Source of the DNA: Clostridiales bacterium
GTDB taxonomy: Bacteria > Bacillota > Clostridia > Oscillospirales > Oscillospiraceae
Length of the DNA: 33,767 nucleotides
Reading direction: 5' to 3'
NCBI GenBank assembly: GCA_020860385.1
Contig: JAJBUK010000010.1
Coordinates: 1-33,767 of the forward strand
Shown here: piece after piece, positions 3,001-33,767 of the stretch
Numbering within the stretch: position 1 is the stretch's first letter
Layout: each line of letters starts with the position of its first letter
Made by a program: the position numbers and the translations under genes
Notes under the pieces: generated by a model
Told to the model about the DNA's origin: nothing
Database searches by the model: none
What the model saw: the letters and a program-made list of their open reading frames with translations, nothing else

Positions 3001-6000
3001 GCCTTCGCCCGACTGGCAATCAAGAGCGAGCCGCGCCCTCAGGGCGTCCTGTTCCGCCGCCGGCCCAAAGAGGGGCGGGAAGCCCTCTGCCTGGCGGCCC
3101 TGTGGGACGGCCCGGTGGTGCGCTGGGACACGGCGCGGATACACGGGCCGCAGCCTGCCGGGCATACGGGGGCGGTCTGCGACCCGCAGCTGACGTTGGA
3201 ACTGGAGGTTCCGGCGGGGGAGACCGGGCGGCTTGTCCTGGCCCTCGCTGTGGGGGAGGAGGGCCAGGCGCTGCGGAACGCGGAAGGGATTCTAGGCGGG
3301 TTGAAGGCGGAGCAAACGCCCTTTGCCCTCCAGCTTTCCGAGCGCTACGGCCTCACCCCCCAGGAGCGGCAGGAAGCGGACAGGCTGCTTTCCAACCTGC
3401 TGCACTGGCAGACGAAGCGGGTATCAGACGGCATCCCAGGCCCACAGGCGCTGTGGCCCTTCGGCATTTCTGGCGACCTGCCCATCGCCGTGGCAGAGGC
3501 GGGCGGGAACGATTGCCAGCGCCTTGCCCGGTTTGCCGCCGAACAAGAATTGCTGGCGGGCTGCGGCTACCCCTTTGACCTGGTGTTTCTGGATAGGGGT
3601 GGAGACTTGCGGGAGCCGCTCAGCGCCAGCCTGCAACAGCGCCACATCCCCGCCACCTTTGGGGGCAGCGGCGGCCTGCATCTGGTCACTGCGCCGCCGG
3701 AGCAGTGGATGCCGCTCTATGCCGGGGCAACAATCGTGCTGCAAAACGAGGTGCCGCAGCTGCCGACAGACGTTGCCCTGCCCCTGGCAGAGGGCATTCC
3801 CATCCCGCCCCAGGAAGGAACGTGTCAATGGGAGTGGCTGGAGGAGGGGGTTCAGCTATCCCTGAACAATGCGCTGCCGCCCCGGCGCTGGAGCCACATC
3901 CTGGCCAACGAGTCCTTCGGCTGGCTGACGAACGAGTGTGGCACAGGGCACCTGTGGTACGGCAACGCCAGGGAGAATCAGCTCCTCCCCTGGGAGAACG
4001 ACCCCCTGGCCCAGCAGGGGCCGGAGGACCTGCTGCTCTCCGCAGAGGGGGAGGACATCTCCTGCTTTGCCCGCCGGGACGGCTGGGAGACGGTGGTGCG
4101 CTACAGCGCAGCCGCCGCCTCCTGGCAGAAGAAAAAGAATGGAAAGGAAATTACCCTTACAGCGGAGATTCCCCTTGGGGAGAACCGGAGAAGCTTTCAT
4201 CTGACCGTTTCCGGCTTCCAAACCCCGGTACAGCTTCGCTGGAAGCTGTGGCCGCAGCTGGCGGAGCGGCGCAGAGATGCCCGTTTTCTGCGGATTCAGC
4301 GGGAAAACGGCGGCGTTTCCCTGACGAATGGGGCAAATCAGGATTTCCCCGGCGTAAAGCTGCTGCTCCAGGCGGAGGGCTGTCCGCTGGAGCTTGCCAT
4401 GCTGCCGGACGGCGGTATCTGCCTGTCCTGCCCCATGACCGGAGTGTTGGATTTAGTGACAAGTGTTTCAACTTCACAGATAGAGAAGCCGCAGCCGTCC
4501 CTCCTGCAGCCGGATTATGACTGGCCGCAGCTGGCCTCACCGCTGCGGGTGGAGACGCCTGACCCTGCGCTGAACCACTACCTCAGCTTCTGGTGCCTCT
4601 ATCAGGTGGTGGCCTGCCGCCTGTTCGGGCGCACCAGCCTGTACCAGTGTGGGGGTGCCTTTGGATTCCGGGACCAGCTTCAGGATGTCTGCGCCCTGAT
4701 CCCCACCGCGCCGGAGCTGGCCCGCCAGCAGATTTTACGGGCGGCGGCGCATCAATTTCGGGAAGGCGATGTGCAGCACTGGTGGCACCCCAGAGGGACG
4801 GCGGAGCCGGAGCGGGGCGTCCGCACCCGCATCAGCGACGATCTGCTGTGGCTGCCCTACGCCCTGGCCTGCTGGAGGTCGGTGACGGGGGACGCCTCCC
4901 TCCTCCGGGAGCGGGTGGGCTGGCTGACCAGCGAACCCCTCCAGCCCCAGGAGCAGGAGCGCTACGAGGCTCCGGGACGAGACGGGGAGGCCTCCACCCT
5001 GTATGAACACGGCTGCGCCGCCATTCACTGCGTCATGGCCCGGGGCACCGGCGCCCACGGCCTGCTGCTGATGGGTGGCGGGGACTGGAATGACGGACTG
5101 AACCGCATCGGCGCAGATGGAAAAGGAGAGAGCGTCTGGCTGACCTGGTTTGCCGCGCTGGTGATGGAGCGATGGTCGGCGGTGGCGGAGGGGCAGAACG
5201 ATGCTGCCCGGGCCGCCCGCTGTTCACAGCGGGCGAAGGAGTTGGCCCAGGCGGCCAACCGGGCCTGGGACGGGCACTGGTACCTCCGGGGCTATGACGA
5301 CGGGGGCAAGCCCTTTGGCGGGGCGGGTCATCCGTTCTGCCAGATGGATTCCATCGCCCAGAGCTTTTCCGTCTTTGCGCCGAACCCCCAGCCGGAGCGG
5401 GGCAGGGAGGCGGTGCTGCAAGCGGTGTCCGCCCTGTATGACGCCGACCATGGCACAGTCGCCCTCCTGCGCGGCGGATTCCAACCCGGCAGCGAGGCTG
5501 GCTATATTCAGAGTTATCCCATCGGTGTGCGGGAGAACGGCGGACAGTACACCCACGGGGCGGTTTGGCTGGCCAGGGCCTGCTATCGGCTGGGAGAGTG
5601 GGAGACCGGCTGGCGGCTCCTGCATGACCTGTTGCCGGAGCATCACGACAGCGGTGTTTACGAAGGGGAACCCTATGTGCTGGCTGGGGACGTATCCACC
5701 GCGCCGGAGCGGGCGGGACGCTGCGGCTGGAGCTGGTACACCGGTGCGGCGGCTTGGTATTACCGCACGGCGACGGAGGAGCTGCTGGGGATACGCCTCC
5801 GGGGCGGCAAACTGTACCTGACCCCTCAGCTGCCGGAGAGCTGGGAGGGCTACCGGGCCACGCTGCGCCTCGCCGGAAAGACGCTGCATATCAGCGTCCA
5901 TTGCGGCGGGCCGTGTCAAATCCTGGTGGACGGTGCGCCCAGGGAGAACGGCATTGCCCTGGACAGCCTGGGGCGGCAGACGGAGCTGACCGTATTTTGC

Positions 6001-18859: not shown

Positions 18860-18869
18860 GGGGGGGGGG
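18860..18869 (+). repeat. Ten-G homopolymer upstream of the capsule promoter
   Basis: Ten consecutive G's, followed by TAGACACC. The tract begins 72 nt upstream of the -35 box. Similar G tracts lie in two capsule-modifying genes (26897-26904 and 31586-31594). The GGGTAGACACCT sequence it forms is nearly the same as a unit of the repeat cluster at 25104-25114. Confidence 0.8.
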
Positions 18870-18931: not shown

Positions 18932-18959
18932 TTGACTTTCATTTCCATTGTGCTATAAT
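18932..18959 (+). promoter_or_regulatory. Main promoter of the capsule/EPS operon
   Basis: TTGACT (18932-18937), 16-nt spacer ending TGC, TATAAT (18954-18959): a strong extended -10 promoter. Transcription would start near 18966, leaving a leader of about 360 nt before the first gene. Confidence 0.85.
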
Positions 18960-23290: not shown

Positions 23291-23986
23291 CGCTGTGGAG
23301 CGTGATAGCGGCCCGGACGTTCCAGGAAAACTGGGCTGCGGTTGCGCGATAGGGGATTGATGGAAGCTGCGTTCAGAGACTGAGATGAGTGCGAAGAAGG
23401 GCAAATGGGAGTTTGTAAAATAATAAGGGCGACAATCTGAGGAATCGCTGATTTTTCGGTGATTTCTGATGGGGCTTGACATAGAGATATTCGAGAGGGA
23501 ATAAGCAAGAAGGAAAAAGTCAGTTTACATAACGGTATTGCGCCTGTTACAGATGATGGAGACACAATAGGGATAATATAAGAGATATAATAGAGACAAA
23601 CCTGGGAAAGAGCTTGAAAACTCAAGGTCAACTGCCCGCCGGGTTCATCTCCAAAAGCCAATTTTGTGCAAGGTCAAGATCAAGGCGGGCAGCCTAAGAG
23701 GAACAAAGAAAAACTGTTTCAGGCTGCTCTCTATTGACCCAAAAAAGAAAGAGCACAAAATTGAAGAAGGAGGAGGTTGAACCAGACCCGCGGCGGATTG
23801 TCCAGGAGACGATCACAGCGAGTCTGGTTTTGTTGCGTAAAAGGAGTACAGATAGGATGAAGAATCGAGTACGAGGCAGTTCAAAAGAGGCAGGTACATC
23901 AAATGGGTATGACAGTTAATGCGTCCTCCTGGACTCAAGAAAATCATCAATGCCATATTGCGAAATAAACGAGGAGAGAACGAGAA
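23291..23986. other. Structured non-coding segment at the composition boundary
   Basis: About 700 nt with no supported gene. It holds a promoter-like TTGACA (23476-23481) with AATAAG 18 nt later, and an inverted repeat CTGCCCGCC/GGCGGGCAG (23632-23640/23684-23692) whose right arm overlaps a second one, CAGCCT/AGGCTG (23690-23695/23721-23726), so the two stems would compete. A long hairpin lies at 23780-23829. GC-rich sequence gives way to AT-rich sequence across this segment. Confidence 0.55.
23780..23829 (+). terminator. Long hairpin with T-rich tail upstream of the dehydrogenase gene
   Basis: Outer arms AACCAGAC (23780-23787) and GTCTGGTT (23822-23829) enclose an inner stem GATTGTC/GACGATC (23796-23802/23808-23814), and TTTGTTG follows. 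It could end transcription from the upstream module or act as an attenuator before 23987. Confidence 0.5.
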
Positions 23987-24688
23987 ATGAGCAACTTGAA
24001 AATTGCAGTAGCTGGAACTGGTCATGTTGGACTATCAATTGCAACGCTACTGGCTCAACATAACACAGTGACAGCGGTAGATATTATACCGGAAAAGGTG
24101 GAACTGATAAATCAACGAAAGTCCCCCATTCAGGATGAGTATATAGAAAAATATCTGGCAGAGAAGGCGCTTGACCTGACCGCCACACTGGATGGTAAGG
24201 CTGCATATTCTTCTGCTGATTTCGTTGTTATAGCGGCACCGACCAACTACGATAGTAAAAAGAATTTCTTTGACACATCTGCTGTGGAAGCAGTTATAGA
24301 ACTGGTTATTGAGAACAATCCTGATGCAATCATGGTGATCAAATCTACGATACCGGTTGGATATACGGCAAGTGTAAGAGAAAAGTTCCATTGCGACAAT
24401 ATCATATTTAGTCCAGAGTTCCTCCGAGAGTCTAAAGCACTTTATGATAATCTGTATCCTTCGAGAATTATTGTCGGTACGGACGTTGAGAATGCAAGGC
24501 TTGTTAAAGCGGCTAACACCTTTGCAGGATTACTACAGGAGGGCGCGATTAAAGAGAACATTGACACCCTCATCATGGGATTTACAGAGGCGGAAGCAGT
24601 AAAACTGTTTGCAAATGTTTACCCAACAAAAAAAGTTTTAAATCTCAGCGTCAGCGCTAGTATAAAACACAGTTTTTTGGCAGCCTGA
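23987..24688 (+). pseudogene. UDP-glucose 6-dehydrogenase, 3'-truncated
   Basis: The N-terminal NAD-binding half of a UDP-glucose/GDP-mannose dehydrogenase: [10 protein letters not shown] (8-17), [39 protein letters not shown], and [14 protein letters not shown]. After about residue 213 the sequence leaves the family ([21 protein letters not shown]) and stops at 233 residues; intact enzymes have about 390-420. The missing part carries the catalytic Cys (GGYCLPKD-type motif) and the UDP-sugar site, so it cannot make UDP-glucuronate. SD GAGGAGAG precedes ATG 23987. A 12-bp inverted repeat, GTTTCAGGCTGC (23716-23727) and GCAGCCTGAAAC (24680-24691), flanks the ORF. Truncation probably came from recombination at the repeat cluster that follows. 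Confidence 0.85.
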
Positions 24689-24715
24689 AACGGCCTGAAA
24701 AGCTCCAGAAAAGTA

Positions 24716-25166
24716 AAACTTCTATGGTAGACGATTTGTAGGGTAGACCTATGGTAACGAATGTTTCATAGGCTATGGGAAACAAAATGTAGGGTAGACA
24801 TGGGTGTTGAGACTAATCAATGATGAGATTTGAATTTGTTGAAGTATTACAAAACGCAGTTATAAACTCCAACATTCCTTTGTAATAAATGAACAAGAAA
24901 TCTATAGTTTCCTCTTTCGTAGGGTAGATATGGTTGAAGATGTGTTCTGTATTGAGCTTGAAACTTTTTCTGTTGGGTAGAGGGGCTTAAAGATATGTGC
25001 CATGTTGAGGACAGTAAAATAAGGAACTTTTGCCGTAGTGTAGACCTGCTTCAAATTATGTACCGCTTGTAGGCGGCTGTGTAGAATTAAAACTTCTGCT
25101 GTTGGGTAGACACCTCGGAAGATATGTACGAGAGGGCGAATATGAAACTTCTATCGTAGGGTACAC
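24716..25166 (+). repeat. Cluster of degenerate GGGTAGAC repeats
   Basis: Seven core copies of a motif close to AAACTTCTGCTGTTGGGTAGAC followed by a GAAGATATGTAC-like part (given here in two pieces) occur in the same orientation. Cores begin at 24738, 24789, 24919, 24972, 25035, 25101 and 25156, plus a shortened copy at 24716-24732. Spacing is 51-66 nt, with one 130-nt gap that looks like a lost copy. Copies vary at many sites. There is no coding potential, and the spacing and divergence do not suit a CRISPR array. A sequence resembling one core occurs at the G tract upstream of the capsule promoter. Confidence 0.75.
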
Positions 25167-25205
25167 CCAGTTGAGAGTTTCATAGTGCTGATGAGGTAGA
25201 TAAGA

Positions 25206-25220
25206 CTGTGATTATCACAG
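25206..25220. promoter_or_regulatory. Palindrome CTGTGATTATCACAG, possible operator
   Basis: Seven-base arms around one T, about 80 nt upstream of the GT4 start codon. It is the right size for a dimeric regulator site. No strong promoter adjoins it; the best candidate is TTGAAG-16-TATAAA at 24839-24866, further upstream. Confidence 0.4.
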
Positions 25221-25298
25221 CATTAATGTAACTGTCAATGCCAAGAGCGGTATTCCGCCGCTTCATATAGAGGAGATTCATAAAGGGGAAGAGAGATT

Positions 25299-26438
25299 GT
25301 GAATGACAACAGAAGACTAAAGATTGCCATGCTCGGTCACAAGACCATGCCTGCAAGAGACTCCTCGTGTGGCGGAATTGAGGTAGTTGTGGAAGAGTTG
25401 TCAACCCGTATGGCAGCACAGGGACATGAGGTTACCTGCTATAACCGGACAGGTTGTGACAATGGTGGGTTACAGGAGTACAAAGGAGTAAAGCTCAAAT
25501 CAGTTTACACAATACATAAAAAAGGACTCGCGGCGATGACATCATCGGTGTTCGCTGCGTTTCATGCTGCTTTTGGAAAGTATGATGTGGTGCATTTCCA
25601 TGCAGAAGGACCATGCGCGATGCTGTGGCTTCCTAAATTGATGGGGAAAAGATGTATCGCAACGATCCATGGTCTGGATTGGCAGCGTGAGAAGTGGGGT
25701 AAAGGCATCGGGTCGAAGTACATACGGTTCGGTGAGAAGACCGCTGTCAAGCACGCTGACGAAATTATTGTTTTAAGTAAAGGCGTCCAGGAGTATTTCT
25801 GGAAGACATACCACAGGAAGACTGTGTTCATCCCGAATGGTGTGAACAGGCCTGTGATTAAAGAGGCTAAAGAGATTAAAGAGAAGTTTGGATTGATAAA
25901 AGACAGTTACATCCTGTTCCTGGGACGGATCGTGCCGGAGAAAGGATTGAGATATCTGGTTGAGGCCTATAAAGGGTTGAACACGGATAAAAAACTTGTG
26001 ATTGCGGGTGGCTCGTCAGATACGGATGAGTTTACTGAAGAATTGAAAAGAATGGCTGGCGATAATGTGATTTTCACAGGATTCGTATCCGGAAGATTAC
26101 ATGAGGAACTGTACAGCAACGCTTACGTTTATGTACTGCCCAGCGATCTTGAGGGAATGCCGCTGAGTCTGCTAGAAGCAATGAGTTATGGTAATTGTTG
26201 TGTAGTCAGTGACATAGAAGAATGCACAGAGGTTGTTGAAGATAAAGCTGTTATGTTTCGGAAAGGCGATGTAGCAGAACTGCAGGAGAAATTGCAGGCA
26301 CTGTGTGATGATGCTGAAGCTGTGGCACGTTATAAGAGTGAGGCTGCTGAATTCATCTGCAGGAAGTACAGCTGGGATGATGTGAGTGAGAAGACAGTGA
26401 AGTTGTATAGGAAAACAAGAACGAGGGCAAACAAATGA
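25299..26438 (+). CDS. Glycosyltransferase family 4
   Basis: GT-B retaining glycosyltransferase, 379 residues, probably adding a sugar to the lipid-linked repeat unit at the cytoplasmic face. The N-terminal domain has SSCGGIEVVVEELSTRMAAQGHEV and the acceptor-side TIHGLDWQREKWG; the C-terminal domain has LFLGRIVPEKGLRYLVEAYK and the EX7E region (DLEGMPLSLLEAMSYGNCCVVSD, given as DLEGMPLSLLEAMSYG then NCCVVSD). Start is GTG 25299 with GGGGAAGAGAG upstream; the first in-frame ATG lies too far in. Donor and linkage cannot be predicted. It is the first intact gene of the low-GC cassette and overlaps the acyltransferase by 4 nt (ATGA). Confidence 0.93.
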   Translation: MNDNRRLKIAMLGHKTMPARDSSCGGIEVVVEELSTRMAAQGHEVTCYNRTGCDNGGLQEYKGVKLKSVYTIHKKGLAAMTSSVFAAFHAAFGKYDVVHFHAEGPCAMLWLPKLMGKRCIATIHGLDWQREKWGKGIGSKYIRFGEKTAVKHADEIIVLSKGVQEYFWKTYHRKTVFIPNGVNRPVIKEAKEIKEKFGLIKDSYILFLGRIVPEKGLRYLVEAYKGLNTDKKLVIAGGSSDTDEFTEELKRMAGDNVIFTGFVSGRLHEELYSNAYVYVLPSDLEGMPLSLLEAMSYGNCCVVSDIEECTEVVEDKAVMFRKGDVAELQEKLQALCDDAEAVARYKSEAAEFICRKYSWDDVSEKTVKLYRKTRTRANK

Positions 26439-27461
26439 TTTTGACGGCATTGATTTTAATAATTTATTGTGTGATTGCCCTTATCGGTGCAAAAAAGAAC
26501 ACCATAGAGGAGGCTGATTGTAGATTCTTTTCTAAGGATTATACCACAGTGCTTAAAGGGCTGTGCTGTGTTATTGTAGTGTTTGTCCATGTGCCAGATG
26601 GCTTTAAAAACACTGTGCAAGACTTAATAGGTAGTTTCGCTTATATATGCGTGACCATCTTTTTCATGCTGTCGTCTTACGGACTGAGATACAGTTTTGA
26701 AAATAAAGAAGGGTATTCAAAGACTTTTTTCAAGAATAGAGTTTTAGTTTTACTTGTACCGTATATCATTTCATGTTTGCTCAAAGTCGTGTGCGGGTTT
26801 AGCCCATATTCTGGTGGGGTGAGATTTGTATACGTTCTTCTGCTGTTTTATATCATAACATTTATAGCTTATAACCTGCCGATTCTGAAATCTGGAGGGG
26901 GGGGTACTCATATGCGGATGCGTTCTCCTTTACAGTTTAGTGGGTTATCTGACGGGTATAGGCAGCAGTTTGGGATTTAGTTGGAATGTTGAAGCTCTTG
27001 GATTTATGTACGGATTTTTGCTGGCTGATAGAAAAAAACTTGATTGTATCAAGACGACAATCAAGAAGCACTCCTTCTTATGCGGAGGCTTATCAATTGC
27101 AGTTGCATTAATCGCAGGGATTGCTTATCTGAAATTTAAGAATGTGTACTTTTTCGGGGAATACCTATTACGCATTGTTTTAGGAATTGCGATCCTCTCA
27201 GTTGTTTTGCTATTTACATATAGAGTGCAGATAGGCAATGCAGCGACAAGGTTTTTAGGGAAAATTTCATATGAGGTTTTCTTGATTCATGGGTTTGTTA
27301 TGAGTGTGCTTTCAGTAGTGAGCGAGCAGGTTATAAAACTGAATTCGGGCGTCTTTATTATGCTGACATTTGCATTCTCTATTGTATTTGCTTACTTGTT
27401 TAACTTAGTGAACACAAGGATCACTAAGGCTATCAAAGGTATAGGAGTTACAGCTAATTAA
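26435..27461 (+). CDS. Acyltransferase family 3 membrane protein, frameshifted in a G tract (phase-variable, currently OFF)
   Basis: Polytopic O-acyltransferase that would decorate the polysaccharide. Two open frames meet at eight G's (26897-26904): the first half (from ATG 26435) has VLKGLCCVIVVFVHVPDG with the conserved His, FFMLSSYGL and several membrane helices; it then runs out of frame to a stop near 26980. The second half continues in the next frame (VLICGCVLLYSLVGYLTG, GFSWNVEALGF, LGKISYEVFLIHGF). Removing one G joins them into a continuous 341-residue protein of normal family length. As read, translation gives a truncated protein of about 180 residues. ATG 26435 overlaps the GT4 stop. 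The G tract is the classical form of a slipped-strand switch; a sequencing error in the homopolymer is the main alternative. Confidence 0.87.
26897..26904 (+). repeat. G8 tract within the acyltransferase gene
   Basis: Eight consecutive G's at the exact point where the reading frame is lost. Seven or ten G's would restore the full-length protein. Confidence 0.88.
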
Positions 27462-27477
27462 AAGGAGAAAATAAGTT

Positions 27478-28653
27478 ATGGCAGAAAAAAAGTTAAACGG
27501 AACAGTCATCGTAACATATCGGTGCAACGCACGCTGTTCTATGTGCAATCGTTATAAAGCACCTTCCAAACCAGAGGAAGAAATTAGCATTGAGACAATC
27601 AGAAAGTTGCCTCCGATGTATTTCACGAACATTACTGGTGGTGAGCCATTTATAAGGACAGACATCCGTGACATTGTAGCAGAGCTTCGTAAGAAGAGTG
27701 ACCGAATTGTCATTTCTACGAATGGATTCTTCACGGATCGCATTGTGGCACTGTGTAAGGAGTTCCCGGATGTCGGCATTCGTATTTCCATCGAGGGTTT
27801 GGAACAGACCAACAACGAAATCCGTGGTCTTCAGAACGGCTATCAGCGTGGATATGGTACTTTGAAAAAGTTGGTCGAGATGGGGATTAAGGATGTAGGC
27901 TTCGGAATGACCGTCCAAGACAAGAATGCTCCGGACCTTGTGCCACTTTATAAAATCTCCGATGAGATGGGCATGGAGTTTGCCACAGCGTCTCTGCATA
28001 ACAGCTTTTATTTCGTGGAAGCTAAGAACATCATTCATGATCGCCCAATGGTTGCGAAGAATTTCGAGGATCTGGTTAATGAACTGCTCCGTTCTAACAG
28101 TCCTAAGAAGTGGTTTAGAGCGTACTTCAATCATGGCCTTATCAACTACATCTACGGACAGCCAAGACTTCTGCCTTGTGATATGAGCTTCGACACATTC
28201 TTTATCGATCCTTACGGGGACGTTATGCCTTGTAATGGCACGAAGGATAAAGAGGTCATGGGCAACCTGAATACACAGACTTGGGACGAACTGTGGAACA
28301 GTCCGGAAGCAGAAGTTGTCCGAAAGAAAGTACGTTGCTGTGACCGTCAGTGTTGGATGATTGGGTCGGTTTCTCCAGCTATGCACAAGTATTTCATGAA
28401 ACCGGCATGGTGGGTTGTGAAGCATAAGGCAAAGGCTCTCTTTACCAAGCATCCGTATTCCATGTACGAGAATAAGATTTGTTGTGATTACAGGGATGGC
28501 AAGGTGACAAAGGAGCAGCTTGATAGATGCAGCACATGTGATTTGTCAGCTGTGGTCAATGATGGCCTGAGTGCTGCATCGAAAGAGCAGCTAAAAGGCA
28601 AGACTGGCGAAGAAATTGTGGATGCTGATATCGCAGCACAGATGAAGGGATAA
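27478..28653 (+). CDS. Radical SAM protein of a polysaccharide cassette, Cys-rich C terminus
   Basis: 391 residues. The radical SAM cluster motif CNARCSMC puts the 4Fe-4S ligands at Cys16, Cys20 and Cys23, followed by the SAM-binding ITGGEPFIRTD and ISTNGFF. The C-terminal part carries SPASM-like cysteines: Cys234 and Cys252 (FIDPYGDVMPCNG), then RCCDRQC (287, 288, 292), ICCDY and RCSTCDLS, enough for at least one extra cluster. Strong SD AAAAGGAG precedes ATG 27478. It sits between the acyltransferase and a sialyltransferase-like gene, 3 nt before the latter, so it is cotranscribed. The substrate is unknown; a role in modifying a sugar or sugar nucleotide of this polysaccharide is inference. 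Confidence 0.88.
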   Translation: MAEKKLNGTVIVTYRCNARCSMCNRYKAPSKPEEEISIETIRKLPPMYFTNITGGEPFIRTDIRDIVAELRKKSDRIVISTNGFFTDRIVALCKEFPDVGIRISIEGLEQTNNEIRGLQNGYQRGYGTLKKLVEMGIKDVGFGMTVQDKNAPDLVPLYKISDEMGMEFATASLHNSFYFVEAKNIIHDRPMVAKNFEDLVNELLRSNSPKKWFRAYFNHGLINYIYGQPRLLPCDMSFDTFFIDPYGDVMPCNGTKDKEVMGNLNTQTWDELWNSPEAEVVRKKVRCCDRQCWMIGSVSPAMHKYFMKPAWWVVKHKAKALFTKHPYSMYENKICCDYRDGKVTKEQLDRCSTCDLSAVVNDGLSAASKEQLKGKTGEEIVDADIAAQMKG

Positions 28654-28656
28654 ATC

Positions 28657-29649
28657 ATGCAAAGAGACGTGTATGTATGTGTTACACCGTATCACTTGTA
28701 TCTATCTTTACTTCTCATAGAGAGTAAAGGTAACAGAGACAACAGTGTGCTACTACTTAATGCTAATGATACGAAAATATATGAGCAATTCTGTTCAATC
28801 AAGGAAAAGCTAGAGAGCAACCGATTTAAAGTTGATGTAAGAATAAGAGACAAGAAGAAAGACATTCTTGGCCTAGAGGAAATAGAAAATAAGAAGCAGT
28901 ACAAAACTGTTTGCTCTATGTTTGGCGAGGATATTACCGGAGAGTTTGTCTTATATAATTTTGCATGGAACTGCCAGTACGTCTATACTACTGCAAATAT
29001 TTACTACAAAAAATGCAAGACAGCTGTATTCGTAGAAGAGGGTGCGCTGACAGCAATTAATCCACCACAGCCTTTGGTAAAAATTTTAGCGAAAAAGATT
29101 CAGGGCGGTTCAGTAGATTTTTATAAAGATGAAAAACTCGAAGGCATTTATGTCCAGCAGCCTGAAATCTATTCAAAAGAATGGAAAGATAAACTGAAAA
29201 AATTGGATGTAACTAGCCTTTTGAATAAGCTGAAAGCCGAAAGTAAAAAAGTGATAGTTAATATCTTTTTGAGTGATTTGGCGGATACGTTAAAAAACCA
29301 ACTGGTTGATGTAGGAATTATTTACACACAGCCATTGTCCGAAGATGGTTTCATTACTGAAGAAGAAAAGATAGATTATTTCACCCAAATGGTGAATTAT
29401 TACTCGAAGTACGGAAAACCTGTACTCAAACTGCATCCAAGGGACGCAAGTACATACAATGTTGCAAGTACCTGTACAGTTCTACCGGCATATTTCCCCA
29501 GCGAGTTGCTGAATCTGCTGAACATACATTTTAAATATGCAGTTGGAATATGTACGAGTGCAGTACCAACGACCGATGCGGAATATAAGTTGAATATAAA
29601 TGAAAATTTTTTAACAGACAGACGTTTCCGGCTTCTCCCGCTTGAATAG
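28657..29649 (+). CDS. GT52-like sialyltransferase (CMP-nonulosonate transferase)
   Basis: 330 residues, GT-B fold expected. The N-terminal VYVCVTPYHLYLSLLLIESKG (in parts: VYVCVTPYHLY, LSLLLIESKG) is typical of the GT52/polysialyltransferase-like group. The two bacterial sialyltransferase motifs are visible: an acidic pair before Gly (VEEG, residues 126-129), which supplies the catalytic base, and the CMP-phosphate motif HP in KLHPRD (258-263). Ser/Thr residues follow near the C terminus (CTSAVPTTD). It would move a sialic-acid-like sugar from CMP to the repeat unit. Neighbouring neuB and neuA genes support this. ATG 28657 has no strong SD and may be coupled to the radical SAM gene. Linkage and acceptor are unknown. 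Confidence 0.78.
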   Translation: MQRDVYVCVTPYHLYLSLLLIESKGNRDNSVLLLNANDTKIYEQFCSIKEKLESNRFKVDVRIRDKKKDILGLEEIENKKQYKTVCSMFGEDITGEFVLYNFAWNCQYVYTTANIYYKKCKTAVFVEEGALTAINPPQPLVKILAKKIQGGSVDFYKDEKLEGIYVQQPEIYSKEWKDKLKKLDVTSLLNKLKAESKKVIVNIFLSDLADTLKNQLVDVGIIYTQPLSEDGFITEEEKIDYFTQMVNYYSKYGKPVLKLHPRDASTYNVASTCTVLPAYFPSELLNLLNIHFKYAVGICTSAVPTTDAEYKLNINENFLTDRRFRLLPLE

Positions 29650-29702
29650 TTTTTGCGGCAGTCGGTTAATGGAAAATATATTTTCTTATGGAGGAAACTA
29701 CT

Positions 29703-30572
29703 ATGTACAAGAAACCTTTTGTTATCGCTGAGGCGGGTTGCAACCACATGGGACAGATGGAGGTTGCCAAGGATTTAATAGAGACAGCGGCACATTTCTG
29801 TAAGGCGGATGCCATCAAGTTCCAGAAGCGTTGCCCGAAGGAACTGCTGACCCCGGAGCAGTATAATGCTCCCCATCCGAATCCTGTGAACTCTTATGGC
29901 AAGACTTACGGTGAGCATCGTGAGTTCTTGGAGTTCACTGTGGATCAGCATGCACAGCTGAAGGAGTGGTGCGAGGAAGCTGGCATTATCTATTCCACTT
30001 CTGTTTGGGATATGACCAGTGCAAAGGAAATTGCTTCTCTGAACCCTGTGTTCATTAAGATTCCATCTGCTTGCAATACCCATTACGAGATGCTCCGGTG
30101 GCTGTGTGATAACTACGGTGGAGAAATCCAGCTTTCCTTCGGTATGACAAGTCACGAAGAGGAAGAGCAGATTGTTCAGCTGTTCGAGAAGAACGGCCGC
30201 GCGAAAGACCTCGTTCTGTTCAACTGCACTTCCGGATATCCTGTGCCGTTTGAAGATGTATGCTTGCTTGAAATTAATCGTATGCGTGAGGCTTATGAGG
30301 ATCGCGTTAAGGCTATCGGTTTCTCTGGTCATCACCTTGGTATAGCTGTTGATGTGGCGGCGTACACACTTGGAGCAGATGTGATCGAGCGTCATTACAC
30401 ACTTGACAGAACATGGAAGGGAACTGACCACGCTGCATCTTTGGAGCCGGACGGAATCCGCAAACTGGTGCGTAATTTGAACGCAGTTCATGAAGCACTT
30501 ACATATAAGCCGTCAGAGATCCTTCCGATCGAGCAAGTACAGAGGGACAAGCTGAAGTATCGCAAGCACTAA
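29703..30572 (+). CDS. NeuB-family nonulosonic acid (9-phosphate) synthase, without SAF domain
   Basis: Condenses PEP with a hexosamine or hexose (or its 6-phosphate) to a nine-carbon acid. 289 residues. It starts FVIAEAGCNHMGQ, with KFQKR and FIKIPSACNTHY, then LSFGMTSHEEE, FNCTSGYPVPFEDVCLLEI, and GFSGHHLGIAVDVAAYTLGADVIERHYTLD (in parts: GFSGHHLGIAVDVAAY, TLGADVIERHYTLD), all TIM-barrel hallmarks of NeuB. The usual C-terminal antifreeze-like (SAF) domain of about 60 residues is absent; the protein ends after KPSEILPIEQVQRDKL. In known dimers this domain closes the partner's active site. ATG 29703 has GGAGG 8 nt upstream. The linked HAD phosphatase suggests a 9-phosphate product. Confidence 0.9.
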   Translation: MYKKPFVIAEAGCNHMGQMEVAKDLIETAAHFCKADAIKFQKRCPKELLTPEQYNAPHPNPVNSYGKTYGEHREFLEFTVDQHAQLKEWCEEAGIIYSTSVWDMTSAKEIASLNPVFIKIPSACNTHYEMLRWLCDNYGGEIQLSFGMTSHEEEEQIVQLFEKNGRAKDLVLFNCTSGYPVPFEDVCLLEINRMREAYEDRVKAIGFSGHHLGIAVDVAAYTLGADVIERHYTLDRTWKGTDHAASLEPDGIRKLVRNLNAVHEALTYKPSEILPIEQVQRDKLKYRKH

Positions 30573-30626
30573 ATTGCCCTTTCTATGGATTTGCATTATT
30601 TGAAGGGAAAAAAGGAAAACAGATAG

Positions 30627-31385
30627 ATGAATGATAATTTAACGCTCTTCACTGTGTCTCCAGATATATCAGTAAGGGATGCGTTGAAGAAGATAGACGA
30701 AAACAAAAAAGGATTTCTTATCGTAATAGATAATGAAGATACCGTTCTTGGAACCCTGACGGATGGAGACGTCCGTCGGGCATTCCTGAAAGGTGCGTCT
30801 GTGGATGATAGCGTTGAGGGACTCTATACCAGAAACTCAAAGTGTCTTAAGCAGGCTGATGGTATTCCAAAAGCGACTGAAATGTTTAAGAATGAGTCTA
30901 TCAAGTTCCTGCCAATCGTAGATGATGAGGATCGTCTGTTGAACGTAATAACAAAGAACCAGATGCACGCCCTGCTGTTGCAGGATATCCACGCTGACTT
31001 GGGATATGATTTCATGAGCCTTGATGAAGGAATCGTGGATTACGAGATTTTCCAAAGACCATGGGGCTTCTACAAGACAACTGTGATGAATGACTATTTC
31101 CAGTCAAAAATTATCAGTGTCAATCCGATGTCACAGCTCAGCCTGCAATCACATAACCACAGGGAAGAACACTGGATTGTTGCTCACGGCGTGGGAACCG
31201 TACAGATAGATCAGTCGATTATAGATGTTCATTGTGGAAGCTCTGTGTTTATCCCCAAAGGTGCAAAGCATCGTTTGACGAACACAGGAGACAAGGAATC
31301 GCTTATAGTTACAGAAGTCCAGATTGGCGATTATTTCGGTGAGGATGACATCATCAGATATGAAGATAACTATGGGAGAATATAG
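30627..31385 (+). CDS. CBS-domain pair fused to a type II phosphomannose isomerase-like cupin
   Basis: 252 residues in two parts. Residues about 1-118 form a CBS pair (VSPDISVRDALKKIDENKKG, GTLTDGDVRRAFLKG, FLPIVDDEDRLLNVITKNQ), like those at the front of sugar nucleotidyltransferases, a nucleotide-sensing module. Residues about 138-252 match the C-terminal isomerase cupin of ManC-type proteins: PWGFYKTT, SLQSHNHREEHWIVAHGVG with metal-binding His/Glu, IPKGAKHRLTN, EVQIGDYFGEDDIIRYEDNYGR. The nucleotidyltransferase domain that normally accompanies either part is missing. A likely role is making mannose-6-phosphate (or an epimeric sugar phosphate) for the NeuB step, controlled by a nucleotide; this is inference. 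SD AAAGGAAAA precedes ATG 30627. Confidence 0.82.
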   Translation: MNDNLTLFTVSPDISVRDALKKIDENKKGFLIVIDNEDTVLGTLTDGDVRRAFLKGASVDDSVEGLYTRNSKCLKQADGIPKATEMFKNESIKFLPIVDDEDRLLNVITKNQMHALLLQDIHADLGYDFMSLDEGIVDYEIFQRPWGFYKTTVMNDYFQSKIISVNPMSQLSLQSHNHREEHWIVAHGVGTVQIDQSIIDVHCGSSVFIPKGAKHRLTNTGDKESLIVTEVQIGDYFGEDDIIRYEDNYGRI

Positions 31386-31388
31386 GTA

Positions 31389-31823
31389 ATGAACGGATTT
31401 CATAGAATGCTTCACAGAGGACAGTTCCACAGGAAAAAGGGACATAAAATCCGTGCAGCTATATATGCAAGAATTATACGAGGCATTTACCAGAACGATA
31501 TAAGCCTTAAGGCTGATATCGATGATGATGTTTGGTTCTGTCATAAAGGATTTGGCGTAGTAATTAATCCCGCCGCAATCGTTCTGGGGGGGGGTACCAC
31601 TGTTCAACACTGTGTAACGATAGGAGAACTGGATGGTTCTGGTGAGGCACCACATATCGGACATAATGTTTTTATTGGTGCAAAAGCAACAATCCTGGGC
31701 AATGTGAATATCGGCGACAATGCAAAAATTGGTGCAGGAGCCGTTGTTCTTTGTGACGTTCCTGAAGGATGTACGGCTGTTGGTGTGCCGGCACGAATTA
31801 TTGACAAGGTGGAGAATATTTAG
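31389..31823 (+). CDS. Hexapeptide-repeat O-acetyltransferase with in-frame G9 tract (phase-variable, currently ON)
   Basis: 144-residue left-handed beta-helix acyltransferase of the serine acetyltransferase (CysE-like) type: [40 protein letters not shown] (in parts: [39 protein letters not shown]), then [16 protein letters not shown] and [19 protein letters not shown]. The catalytic His lies in VQHCVTIG. It sits directly between the CBS-cupin and neuA genes, so it probably O-acetylates the nonulosonic acid, as sialate O-acetyltransferases encoded beside neuA genes do elsewhere. Nine G's (31586-31594) encode the three glycines; losing or gaining one would truncate the protein. The neuA start follows the stop codon with no gap. 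Confidence 0.85.
31586..31594 (+). repeat. G9 tract within the O-acetyltransferase gene
   Basis: Nine consecutive G's in frame (Gly-Gly-Gly). At this length slippage is expected, and a one-base change abolishes the C-terminal half including the remaining hexapeptide turns. Confidence 0.88.
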
Positions 31824-33008
31824 ATGAACATAGCTTTTATTCCGGTAAGGGGCGGAAGCAAATCAATACCTCTGAAAAATATAAAACCTATTTGTGGTAA
31901 GCCGCTCGTTTACTGGACAGTAAAAGCTGCTTGCCAGTGCAAATACATTGATGTAGTCTACATTGCTACAGACAGCGAAAAGATTAAAGAAACTGTGGAA
32001 GCGTTTAAGTGCGGGGAGGAAGCGGAAAATTTCTCCAAGGCACAAGTAATTGGAAGAAGTGCAGAGTCAGCGTCTGACACAGCATCCACAGAATTTGCAA
32101 TGCTTGAGTTCGCGGCAAATTATGAGTTTGACAACATTGTTCTTGTCCAGGCCACGTCCCCCATGCTTACGGCAGCTGATTTGGATGGCGGATTTGAGCT
32201 GTTCAACACCGATGGAACAGATTCTGTACTCTCTGTTGTCCGCCAGTATAGATTCCTGTGGGACAAGGATAAGAACGGAAATGTAAATCCGAGTAATTAT
32301 GATGTTTTTCATCGTCCCCGCCGCCAAGAGTTTGACGGTTACTTGATGGAAAACGGTGCATTTTATATTTCTTCCAAGGCTGACCTGATTAAGTATCAGA
32401 ACCGTGTTTCAGGCAATATCAAGGCCTATGAAATGTGTGAGGACAGCGCATTTGAGATTGACGAGCTAAGTGACTGGATCATCATTGAGGCGTTGATGAG
32501 GAAGAGTGGGGTTGCCAAAGAACAGGGTGTCGCTGAAGAGAAGAAGAGCATTCCTGATATCAAGATGTTCCTGACGGACTGTGACGGGTGTCTGACTGAT
32601 GGCGGGATGTACTACTCCGAGAATGGAGATGAGTTAAAGAAATTCAATACCAGGGACGGTATGGGATTTGCGTTACTTCGTGCCAAAGGAATAATTACGG
32701 GAATTGTTACATCGGAGTCCGTTGACCTTAACAGAAGACGAGCAGAAAAGCTAAAGCTGGATATTCTTGAATCTGGCTGCAAGGACAAGGTAGCAGCCGT
32801 GAAGAGGTTGTGTGAGCAGTATGGAGTTGAGATGGAAAATGTTGCGTATGTTGGCGATGACATAAATGACATGGAAGTTATCAAAATGGTAGGTTACGGA
32901 TGCGCTCCTGCGGATGCAATGCCACAGGTGAGGGCTGTTGCAGACTATGTGACTAAGGCTAAAGGCGGCGAGGGCGTTATCCGGGAAGTGGTGGAGATGC
33001 TTGTATGA
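31824..33008 (+). CDS. neuA: Bifunctional CMP-nonulosonate synthetase / HAD phosphatase (NeuA-HAD)
   Basis: 394 residues. Residues about 1-230 are an acylneuraminate cytidylyltransferase: IPVRGGSKSIPLKNIKPICGKPL (in parts: IPVRGGSKSIPLKNI, KPICGKPL), YIATDSEKI, LVQATSPMLTAADLDGG, and ENGAFYISSK. Residues about 248-394 are a KdsC-like HAD phosphatase: LTDCDGCLTDGG with nucleophile Asp252 and Asp254, VTSESVDLNRRRAEKL, and GDDINDMEVIKMVG. A fused phosphatase next to the cytidylyltransferase is the arrangement used when the NeuB product is a 9-phosphate, so this protein may dephosphorylate and then activate it with CTP. ATG 31824 follows the O-acetyltransferase stop directly and overlaps nothing; the next gene starts inside its stop codon (ATGA). 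Confidence 0.93.
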   Translation: MNIAFIPVRGGSKSIPLKNIKPICGKPLVYWTVKAACQCKYIDVVYIATDSEKIKETVEAFKCGEEAENFSKAQVIGRSAESASDTASTEFAMLEFAANYEFDNIVLVQATSPMLTAADLDGGFELFNTDGTDSVLSVVRQYRFLWDKDKNGNVNPSNYDVFHRPRRQEFDGYLMENGAFYISSKADLIKYQNRVSGNIKAYEMCEDSAFEIDELSDWIIIEALMRKSGVAKEQGVAEEKKSIPDIKMFLTDCDGCLTDGGMYYSENGDELKKFNTRDGMGFALLRAKGIITGIVTSESVDLNRRRAEKLKLDILESGCKDKVAAVKRLCEQYGVEMENVAYVGDDINDMEVIKMVGYGCAPADAMPQVRAVADYVTKAKGGEGVIREVVEMLV

Positions 33009-33767
33009 TAGATTCACAAGAGGATTTAATATCTGTAATTGTACCAATCTTTAAAGTAGAAAAGGATTTACCATCTTGCGTAAAAAGCATCCAAGCTCAA
33101 ACGTATACAAATCTTGAGATATTCTTGGTTGATGATGGCTCGCCAGACAATTGTCCCCAAATTTGTGATGCCTTGCGGGAGTCAGATTCGAGAATTCAGG
33201 TGATTCACAAAGCGAATGGTGGCTTATCTGATGCTAGAAATGTTGCACTCGACAAGTGTACGGGAAAGTATGTGATTTTTGTTGATAGCGATGATTTGGT
33301 TCACCCAGAAATGATAAAAATACTTCATTTACTTTGCGTAGAGAATAAAACGGAGATTGCAGTCTGCAATTATTTATCTGTAGCTACAAGGGATTTTCAA
33401 TATAATGCTCTCGTAAATGCTCATACGAGAAGCAGTGAGATTGAAATATTATCACCCGAAGCTGCTTTGATTTACATGATGGATGTTTACAAAAATTTTC
33501 AAGTTGCTGCTTGGAACAAGATGTATGAGAGAAAATTATTTGATCATGTGAGATATCCTGTGGGTATATATTATGAGGATATCGCAACCACGTATAAGCT
33601 AATTGGACAGTGCAATTCTGTTGCATATACACATGAACAGTTATACTTCTATCAATTGCGGGATAGTTCAATAACGCGGTCGGGATATAATTCTCGCGAC
33701 TTAGATAAAGTTAAAAATTCGGGAGAACTATTATCTTATGTTGAAATTAACTACCCATCAATAAAGG
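33005..33767 (+). CDS. Glycosyltransferase family 2, 3'-partial
   Basis: Inverting GT-A glycosyltransferase; 254 codons are visible and the frame is open to the window edge. It has the family-typical start LISVIVPIFKVEKDLPSCVKSIQAQTYTNLEI (in parts: ISVIVPIFKVEKDLP, SIQAQTYTNLEI), LVDDGSPDN with the nucleotide-binding Asp residues, NGGLSDARNVALDKCTGKYV, the DxD motif VDSDDLVHPEM, and the YYEDIATTYKL segment that supplies the base. ATG 33005 overlaps the neuA stop, so it belongs to the same operon. The specific sugar cannot be told. Confidence 0.92.
   Translation, partial: MIDSQEDLISVIVPIFKVEKDLPSCVKSIQAQTYTNLEIFLVDDGSPDNCPQICDALRESDSRIQVIHKANGGLSDARNVALDKCTGKYVIFVDSDDLVHPEMIKILHLLCVENKTEIAVCNYLSVATRDFQYNALVNAHTRSSEIEILSPEAALIYMMDVYKNFQVAAWNKMYERKLFDHVRYPVGIYYEDIATTYKLIGQCNSVAYTHEQLYFYQLRDSSITRSGYNSRDLDKVKNSGELLSYVEINYPSIK

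Follow-up and report, generated by a model that had tools for sequence, protein, structure and literature searches.

A probable poly-G contingency locus in an acyltransferase gene of a clostridial nonulosonate island

A single acyltransferase-3 (AT3) gene (PF01757, Acyl_transf_3) in a draft clostridial genome is spread over two reading frames between positions 26435 and 27461, and raises the question of whether it is a gene that is switched on and off, a pseudogene, an assembly error, a site of recoding, or two separate proteins. We analyzed it within a window of 33,767 nucleotides, comprising positions 1-33767 of one contig in a 2.53 Mb draft genome of 142 contigs. The GC content of the window drops from 61% to 43% from about 23.9 kb, where a glycan island (23900-33100) begins, and the features of the island are listed below; homologous loci referred to throughout are L044, in the Lachnospiraceae MAG C.3_1 (genome G059), and L099 and L112, both in genome G240.

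25299-26438, plus strand: GT4-type glycosyltransferase, overlapping the AT3 start (Pfam Glycos_transf_1, 109.1 bits); order kept in L044 and L112
26435-26980, plus strand: N-terminal piece of the AT3 gene, whose frame enters the tract (Pfam PF01757, 36.2 bits, profile positions 6-140 of 326)
26897-26904, plus strand: G8 tract, the place of the frame change and the proposed slippage site; tracts at the matching place in L044 (G9) and L099 (G8)
26940-27461, plus strand: C-terminal piece of the AT3 gene, in the other frame (PF01757, 32.1 bits, profile positions 184-324 of 326; dN/dS 0.21 against L044)
27478-28653, plus strand: radical SAM/SPASM protein, directly 3' of AT3 (Pfam; 97% identity to its L044 counterpart)
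28657-29649, plus strand: GT52 or polysialyltransferase-like glycosyltransferase (Pfam PF07922, 40.3 bits; PF07388, 30.3 bits)
29688-30572, plus strand: NeuB-family nonulosonate synthase (Pfam NeuB, 237 bits)
30627-31385, plus strand: CBS plus mannose-6-phosphate-isomerase-like cupin protein (Pfam)
31389-31823, plus strand: hexapeptide (CysE/EpsC-like) acetyltransferase, open frame (Pfam Hexapep; NCBIfam EpsC, 100.5 bits, cut-off 150)
31824-33008, plus strand: CMP-sugar transferase fused to a HAD phosphatase, KDN-9-phosphatase-like (Pfam; NF058599, 171.2 bits, cut-off 180)

The first AT3 frame starts with the ATG at 26435, passes into the G8 tract and ends at a stop at 26980, and the second is open from the region of the tract to 27461, with a GTG at 26940 as its first listed start codon. 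Both pieces, matched over 26435-26977 and 26940-27458, score above the Pfam gathering score of 31 bits for Acyl_transf_3, placing the gene in this family, and this is the sole domain match in the window pieces as well as in L099, with no SGNH domain found. The first-pass annotation had described two halves in adjacent frames with the change at the eight G residues, and its coordinates are right, and the frame arithmetic behind its proposal that one G fewer would yield a continuous protein of 341 residues agrees with ours. The tract is an uninterrupted repeat within a coding frame, and the frame changes at the repeat, as in a contingency locus. At eight residues it falls short of the G9 cut-off that one study chose for Neisseria, and in which siaD, with a G7, is described as switching too slowly to be efficient (PMC5953494), while the L044 tract reaches G9. 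On the other hand, lengths of eight and nine G residues are seen to vary in cgtB of Campylobacter jejuni (PMC6437147). The window tract may switch slowly.

The surrounding operon appears to be devoted to a surface glycan. The HAD phosphatase part of the terminal fusion resembles KDN-9-phosphatase, with a score below the cut-off of that model, and KDN, or a different nonulosonic acid, may therefore be a component of the glycan. As for the host, the earlier description as spore-forming fits a Bacillota member of this kind: three window ORFs match the stage III sporulation proteins AA (247.5 bits), AB (46.3 bits) and AG (69.6 bits), all below the curated NCBIfam equivalog cut-offs, and these are their only NCBIfam matches, a fourth ORF giving none.

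When the genome collection was scanned with the C-terminal piece, six loci were returned, the best of which is L044, with the gene order GT4, AT3, radical SAM, GT52-like, NeuB, CBS-cupin and CMP-transferase/HAD, and without a hexapeptide acetyltransferase gene at the corresponding place. The L044 AT3 gene is likewise broken, its register matching that of the window, and has a G9 tract (L044:5956-5964) at the place corresponding to the window G8. The two AT3 proteins are 67-68% identical after the tract, and the synonymous difference between the loci is close to saturation (pS 0.56-0.75 in the five operon stretches compared); at identical residues with degenerate codons, the codons agree in 0.32-0.52 of cases. 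The bases directly 5' of the tract differ between the two loci, and the G run is kept. For the part of AT3 after the break dN/dS is 0.21, with dS about 1.0, compared with 0.05 for the GT4 gene, 0.02 for NeuB and 0.08 for GT52. Because this ratio exceeds those of the three neighbours the constraint is relaxed, and the comparison indicates that this part of AT3 is held under protein constraint weaker than that on its neighbours rather than drifting freely; for the part before the tract, saturation at synonymous sites meant that no ratio was formed. L044 also contains a second G9 (4062-4070), which is intergenic ahead of the GT4 gene and has no clear promoter placement.

The tract recurs in a more distant relative. 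L099 contains an intact AT3 of 347 residues, about 35% identical and scoring 70 bits with Acyl_transf_3, in which a G8 lies in the same loop and before the same helix as the window tract, the offset of the tract within the matched span being 462 in the window, 466 in L044 and 493 in L099. The L099 gene comes after a GT4 gene, with a radical SAM gene three genes further on. Both states therefore exist, although in different species: broken in the window and L044, and intact in L099. Directly after the intact gene G240 has a second AT3 (L112:8247-9289, minus strand) that is split at a G7, its pieces matching profile positions 4-255 (60.6 bits) and 271-325 (21.9 bits, below the cut-off).

In the family of the L044 genome six of 397 genomes matched at E 1e-15, G240 with L099 among them, and with the L099 protein as query matches were found in four of 392 genomes in its order, both counts including the L044 genome. 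The same query matched one of 394 genomes in the order of the window, its own, and four of 311 in the class of G240, G240 included. AT3 matches were found in four of 59 relatives and in four of 32 genomes of the window's genus, its own genome being counted each time, and the re-matching relatives have no runs of at least seven. No close AT3 homologue was found in plasmids (tblastn with the L099 protein), and no AT3 relative in the viral contigs scanned.

The homologue survey drew on 26 sources, of which L009 gave no match and L004, L041, L100 and L112 were repeats, leaving 21 distinct homologues. Four of these have a G run of at least eight, three of them at the same place, and the other 17 have no G/C run of at least seven in the matched span (partial for L008 and L043). 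With 0.0095 expected per gene, 0.2 homologues with such a run would be predicted (P 6e-5, a simplification that treats genes as independent and of window-like composition). On the same assumption of independence, the tract is kept beyond what composition and divergence account for, three homologues sharing the loop. In L219, about 23% identical, the G8 sits in a different loop, within an open frame of 456 codons. L107, with the order GT, AT3, radical SAM, is unbroken and lacks G runs of at least six, and the tract is therefore not needed for function. Outside the 21, a Pseudobutyrivibrio plasmid locus with an acyltransferase beside a radical SAM gene (L067) has no G/C run of seven.

We consider it probable that the AT3 gene is a contingency locus, in which slippage in the G tract toggles between a truncated and a full-length enzyme that acylates the nonulosonate surface glycan of the operon. 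Replication slippage would change the length of the tract by single units and so shift the AT3 frame; the assembled length would give a truncated and inactive form, and another length the full-length membrane protein, which would then acylate the nonulosonate-containing glycan made by the surrounding genes. AT3 proteins are reported to acylate extracytoplasmic glycans (PMC9558356), and for this gene we infer the slippage, its reversibility, the substrate and the O-acyl product. The contingency-locus design put forward in the first-pass annotation gains support from sequence and comparison together, through the poly-G tract, the frame change, the intact relative and the glycan locus. Decay, or an isolated assembly error, is less likely because the assembly of another genome is broken at the same tract.

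Of the competing explanations, a decaying pseudogene survives best. An indel in an easily hit run would have inactivated the gene, which would now be on its way out, in keeping with its being broken in the window and L044 alike and with a dN/dS after the break above that of the neighbouring genes. However, this part has stayed open for about 184 codons in both copies at a dN/dS of 0.21, no second frame change or stop is seen in either, the G run survives nearly saturated synonymous divergence, and in the distant relative L099 the gene is unbroken and has its G8 at the matching place. We therefore regard loss of the gene as unlikely.

More doubtful still is the explanation that the window's G run was sequenced or assembled wrongly. 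Poly-G stretches are typical of two-colour short-read chemistry, and the 142-contig draft does have such stretches at some contig ends. But the L044 assembly (contig NODE_23, coverage 16.7) is broken at the same tract, and among 105 G/C runs of six or seven in a sample of the window's own genome that includes the window, 87 are intact through a gene and one lies at a frame change, the rest being unclassified.

Slightly less probable again is programmed recoding, in which polymerase or ribosome would slip on the G run and produce both a short and a full-length protein from unchanged DNA. In its favour, the frame is lost with a matching register in the window and L044, and slippage can occur on homopolymers at least eight long (PMC3711429). 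L044 and the in-frame L099 also share the codon phase of the run (phase 1), but the window has phase 0, so that among the three sequences compared no fixed codon pair seems to be kept; moreover, L099 is in frame with its G8, and the characteristic slippery motifs named in the same source are runs of A or T. It is highly improbable that the locus encodes two proteins of a split enzyme, with the downstream ORF translated from a start of its own: a GTG does follow 36 nt beyond the tract in the window's downstream frame, but the L044 start lies elsewhere (TTG at L044:6079, 115 nt after the tract) and tract-less homologues are single-chain.

The contingency-locus reading can also be set against base composition. 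Over the whole window there are nine seven-G matches against a shuffle mean of 13.6, with at least nine in 85 of 100 shuffles, and there is no whole-window G7 excess because the first 24 kb have 61% GC. Within the island two G/C runs of at least eight are present against a simulated mean of 0.06, two being reached in 0.001 of 1000 simulations, and in the AT3 gene alone one run of at least eight arises in 0.0095 of 2000 simulations. The shared place of the tract in homologues makes a stronger case than these statistics. The window contains two other long tracts:

31586-31594, plus strand: G9 tract, in frame, inside the hexapeptide acetyltransferase gene
18860-18869, plus strand: G10 tract, intergenic, ahead of polysaccharide genes, 62 nt upstream of a promoter-like site

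The G9 is a possible second switch, which would be ON in the present assembly. No relatives of this acetyltransferase were found in the 397 genomes of the L044 family (E 1e-25, in a scan without positive control), and 46 plasmid records contain distant relatives of less than 60% identity. The G10 was considered as a promoter switch and dropped, since it lies that far upstream of the best promoter-like site (TTGACT-N16-TATAAT at 18932-18959) and outside the spacer.

Across the window's own genome a non-G followed by eight G residues occurs at 17 places, seven of which were dropped as lying at or near contig ends (C63, C65, C90, three in C100, and C128). Three of the ten interior runs of at least eight fall in the window, which is 1.3% of the genome (P 2.7e-4, post hoc), and the remaining ones lie, by eye, outside glycan genes. 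No G or C run reaches seven at the three other AT3 loci of this genome, and a 0.23 Mb sample without the window gave G/C run counts of 606, 101 and 6 plus one G10, with no clear excess. An in-frame G9 is present in mutS (L054, contig C96, about 5088-5096; Pfam MutS III, IV and V), and could switch the mutation rate. The ends of contigs C63 and C100 (L051, L055) have poly-G stretches as long as 51 bases, which are probably sequencing artefacts.

The genome containing L044 has 29 matches to the same pattern of a non-G and eight G residues, one of them next to a block of N and five in a single anomalous contig (C22). We sampled 60 stretches (0.99 Mb) and excluded three from the run-length count, the anomalous contig and two that had been picked for runs already known, so that 0.95 Mb remained. 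G/C runs of lengths five to ten number 780, 58, 4, 2, 6 and 1, so that nine runs of eight to ten are seen against 0.35 predicted by geometric decay from the step between five and six (P 1.5e-10). A/T runs of six to nine (883, 291, 39 and 2) have no second peak, and in a 0.29 Mb sample of G240 that includes the chosen AT3 stretch G/C runs of five to nine (145, 16, 3, 2 and 1) show no clear second peak.

Several of the runs in the L044 genome interrupt genes. A DUF6056 membrane protein is split at a C9, each piece exceeding its Pfam cut-off (L082); a hexapeptide acetyltransferase is split at a G9, with the second piece alone matching Pfam (L088); and two membrane-type ORF pairs without firm family are split at runs (L070, L072). 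In-frame runs are found in a GT-D-like protein (L087) and in L084 and L086 (kinase-like, by eye). Of the 29 pattern matches six could be classified and four of these lie at a frame change, among them L074, and the count is weak because the L074 frame change is probably a wrong-strand artefact. For comparison, 44 of 526 classified G/C runs of five or six in the sample lie at a frame change, no run of seven having been classified, as do 10-15% of A/T runs of six to eight (57/495). At three loci (L071, L073 and L083) poly-G lies between a TTGACA and a TATAAT-like box, with spacings of 16, 18 and 19 nt. The promoter-like spacers of L071 and L073 stand ahead of ORFs that by eye are lipoprotein-like and secreted-protein-like, respectively, and downstream of L083 no ORF of at least 60 codons starts within 250 nt on the same strand. 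In L095 of this genome a G8 closes one open frame, and another open frame follows.

Switchable O-acetylation of a nonulosonate polymer is known from NeuO of E. coli K1, which differs from the window gene in that it belongs to the hexapeptide family, has heptanucleotide repeats and is prophage-borne. In Neisseria the repeat of pglI is poly-G. PglI is, like the window AT3, an AT3-family O-acetyltransferase acting on a surface (pilin) glycan, and its gene was phase variable in 82 of 122 loci (PMC5953494); however, PglI is an AT3-SGNH fusion (PMC9558356), whereas the window gene is AT3 alone, in another lineage and with another glycan. The same source describes oafA of Haemophilus influenzae, a phase-variable AT3 that O-acetylates a surface glycan, but which has tetranucleotide repeats in place of poly-G and acts on lipooligosaccharide, and oafB of Salmonella, a phase-variable AT3 acting on a surface polysaccharide, but controlled epigenetically through DNA methylation without a coding tract (PMC9558356). 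In cgtB, one of the poly-G contingency genes of Campylobacter jejuni, a coding tract of eight or nine G residues toggles a glycan enzyme (PMC6437147), although this is a galactosyltransferase, and the window gene encodes an acyltransferase in another phylum.

The type of mechanism is thus an old one, with phase-variable AT3 genes already described from Neisseria, Haemophilus and Salmonella. The apparent novelty lies in the lineage, in a tract placed alike in different families, and in the suggestion of a poly-G repertoire. The first-pass annotation had called the design rarely described in spore-forming gut Clostridia, with which the open-access literature that we searched agrees: among the matches listed we recognised no poly-G phase-variable gene in Clostridia. 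The examples of phase variation in gut bacteria given in one source are mostly DNA inversions, including invertible promoters in C. difficile (PMC11868660), and in a chicken-gut Firmicute cholera toxin B was bound by part of a culture, a pattern called reminiscent of phase variation (PMC6437147).

A broader reading, which we put forward tentatively and take to be rather short of an even chance for all its parts together, is that gut Clostridia, or at least the Lachnospiraceae, run a genome-wide poly-G phasome of the Neisseria and Campylobacter type. It would comprise coding tracts in acyltransferases, DUF6056 proteins and glycosyltransferases, together with poly-G in promoter spacers; nonulosonate islands would carry switches across family borders, with two independently switchable acyl- or acetyltransferases in the window; and the window's host has the in-frame G9 in its own mutS. 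If tract slippage does govern glycan acylation in Clostridia, a clonal population would be mixed for surface structure, with possible effects on phage sensitivity, on antibody recognition, and on the binding of lectins or toxins. Genes switched in this way would be counted as pseudogenes in consensus assemblies.

The upstream edge of the island has features of its own. A truncated UDP-glucose-dehydrogenase-like ORF lies at its start and loses its frame near one arm of a 30-nt inverted repeat (24616-24645), the second arm of which is at 25083-25112. After the arm near this ORF there are degenerate direct repeats around TGTTGGGTAGACA, spaced by 51-66 nt, and the region between 24616 and 25175 resembles what is left of a transposon end bearing multiple transposase sites. 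The intergenic G10 at 18860-18869 is followed by TAGACACC, and the same motif is present in the repeat region at 24.7-25.2 kb.
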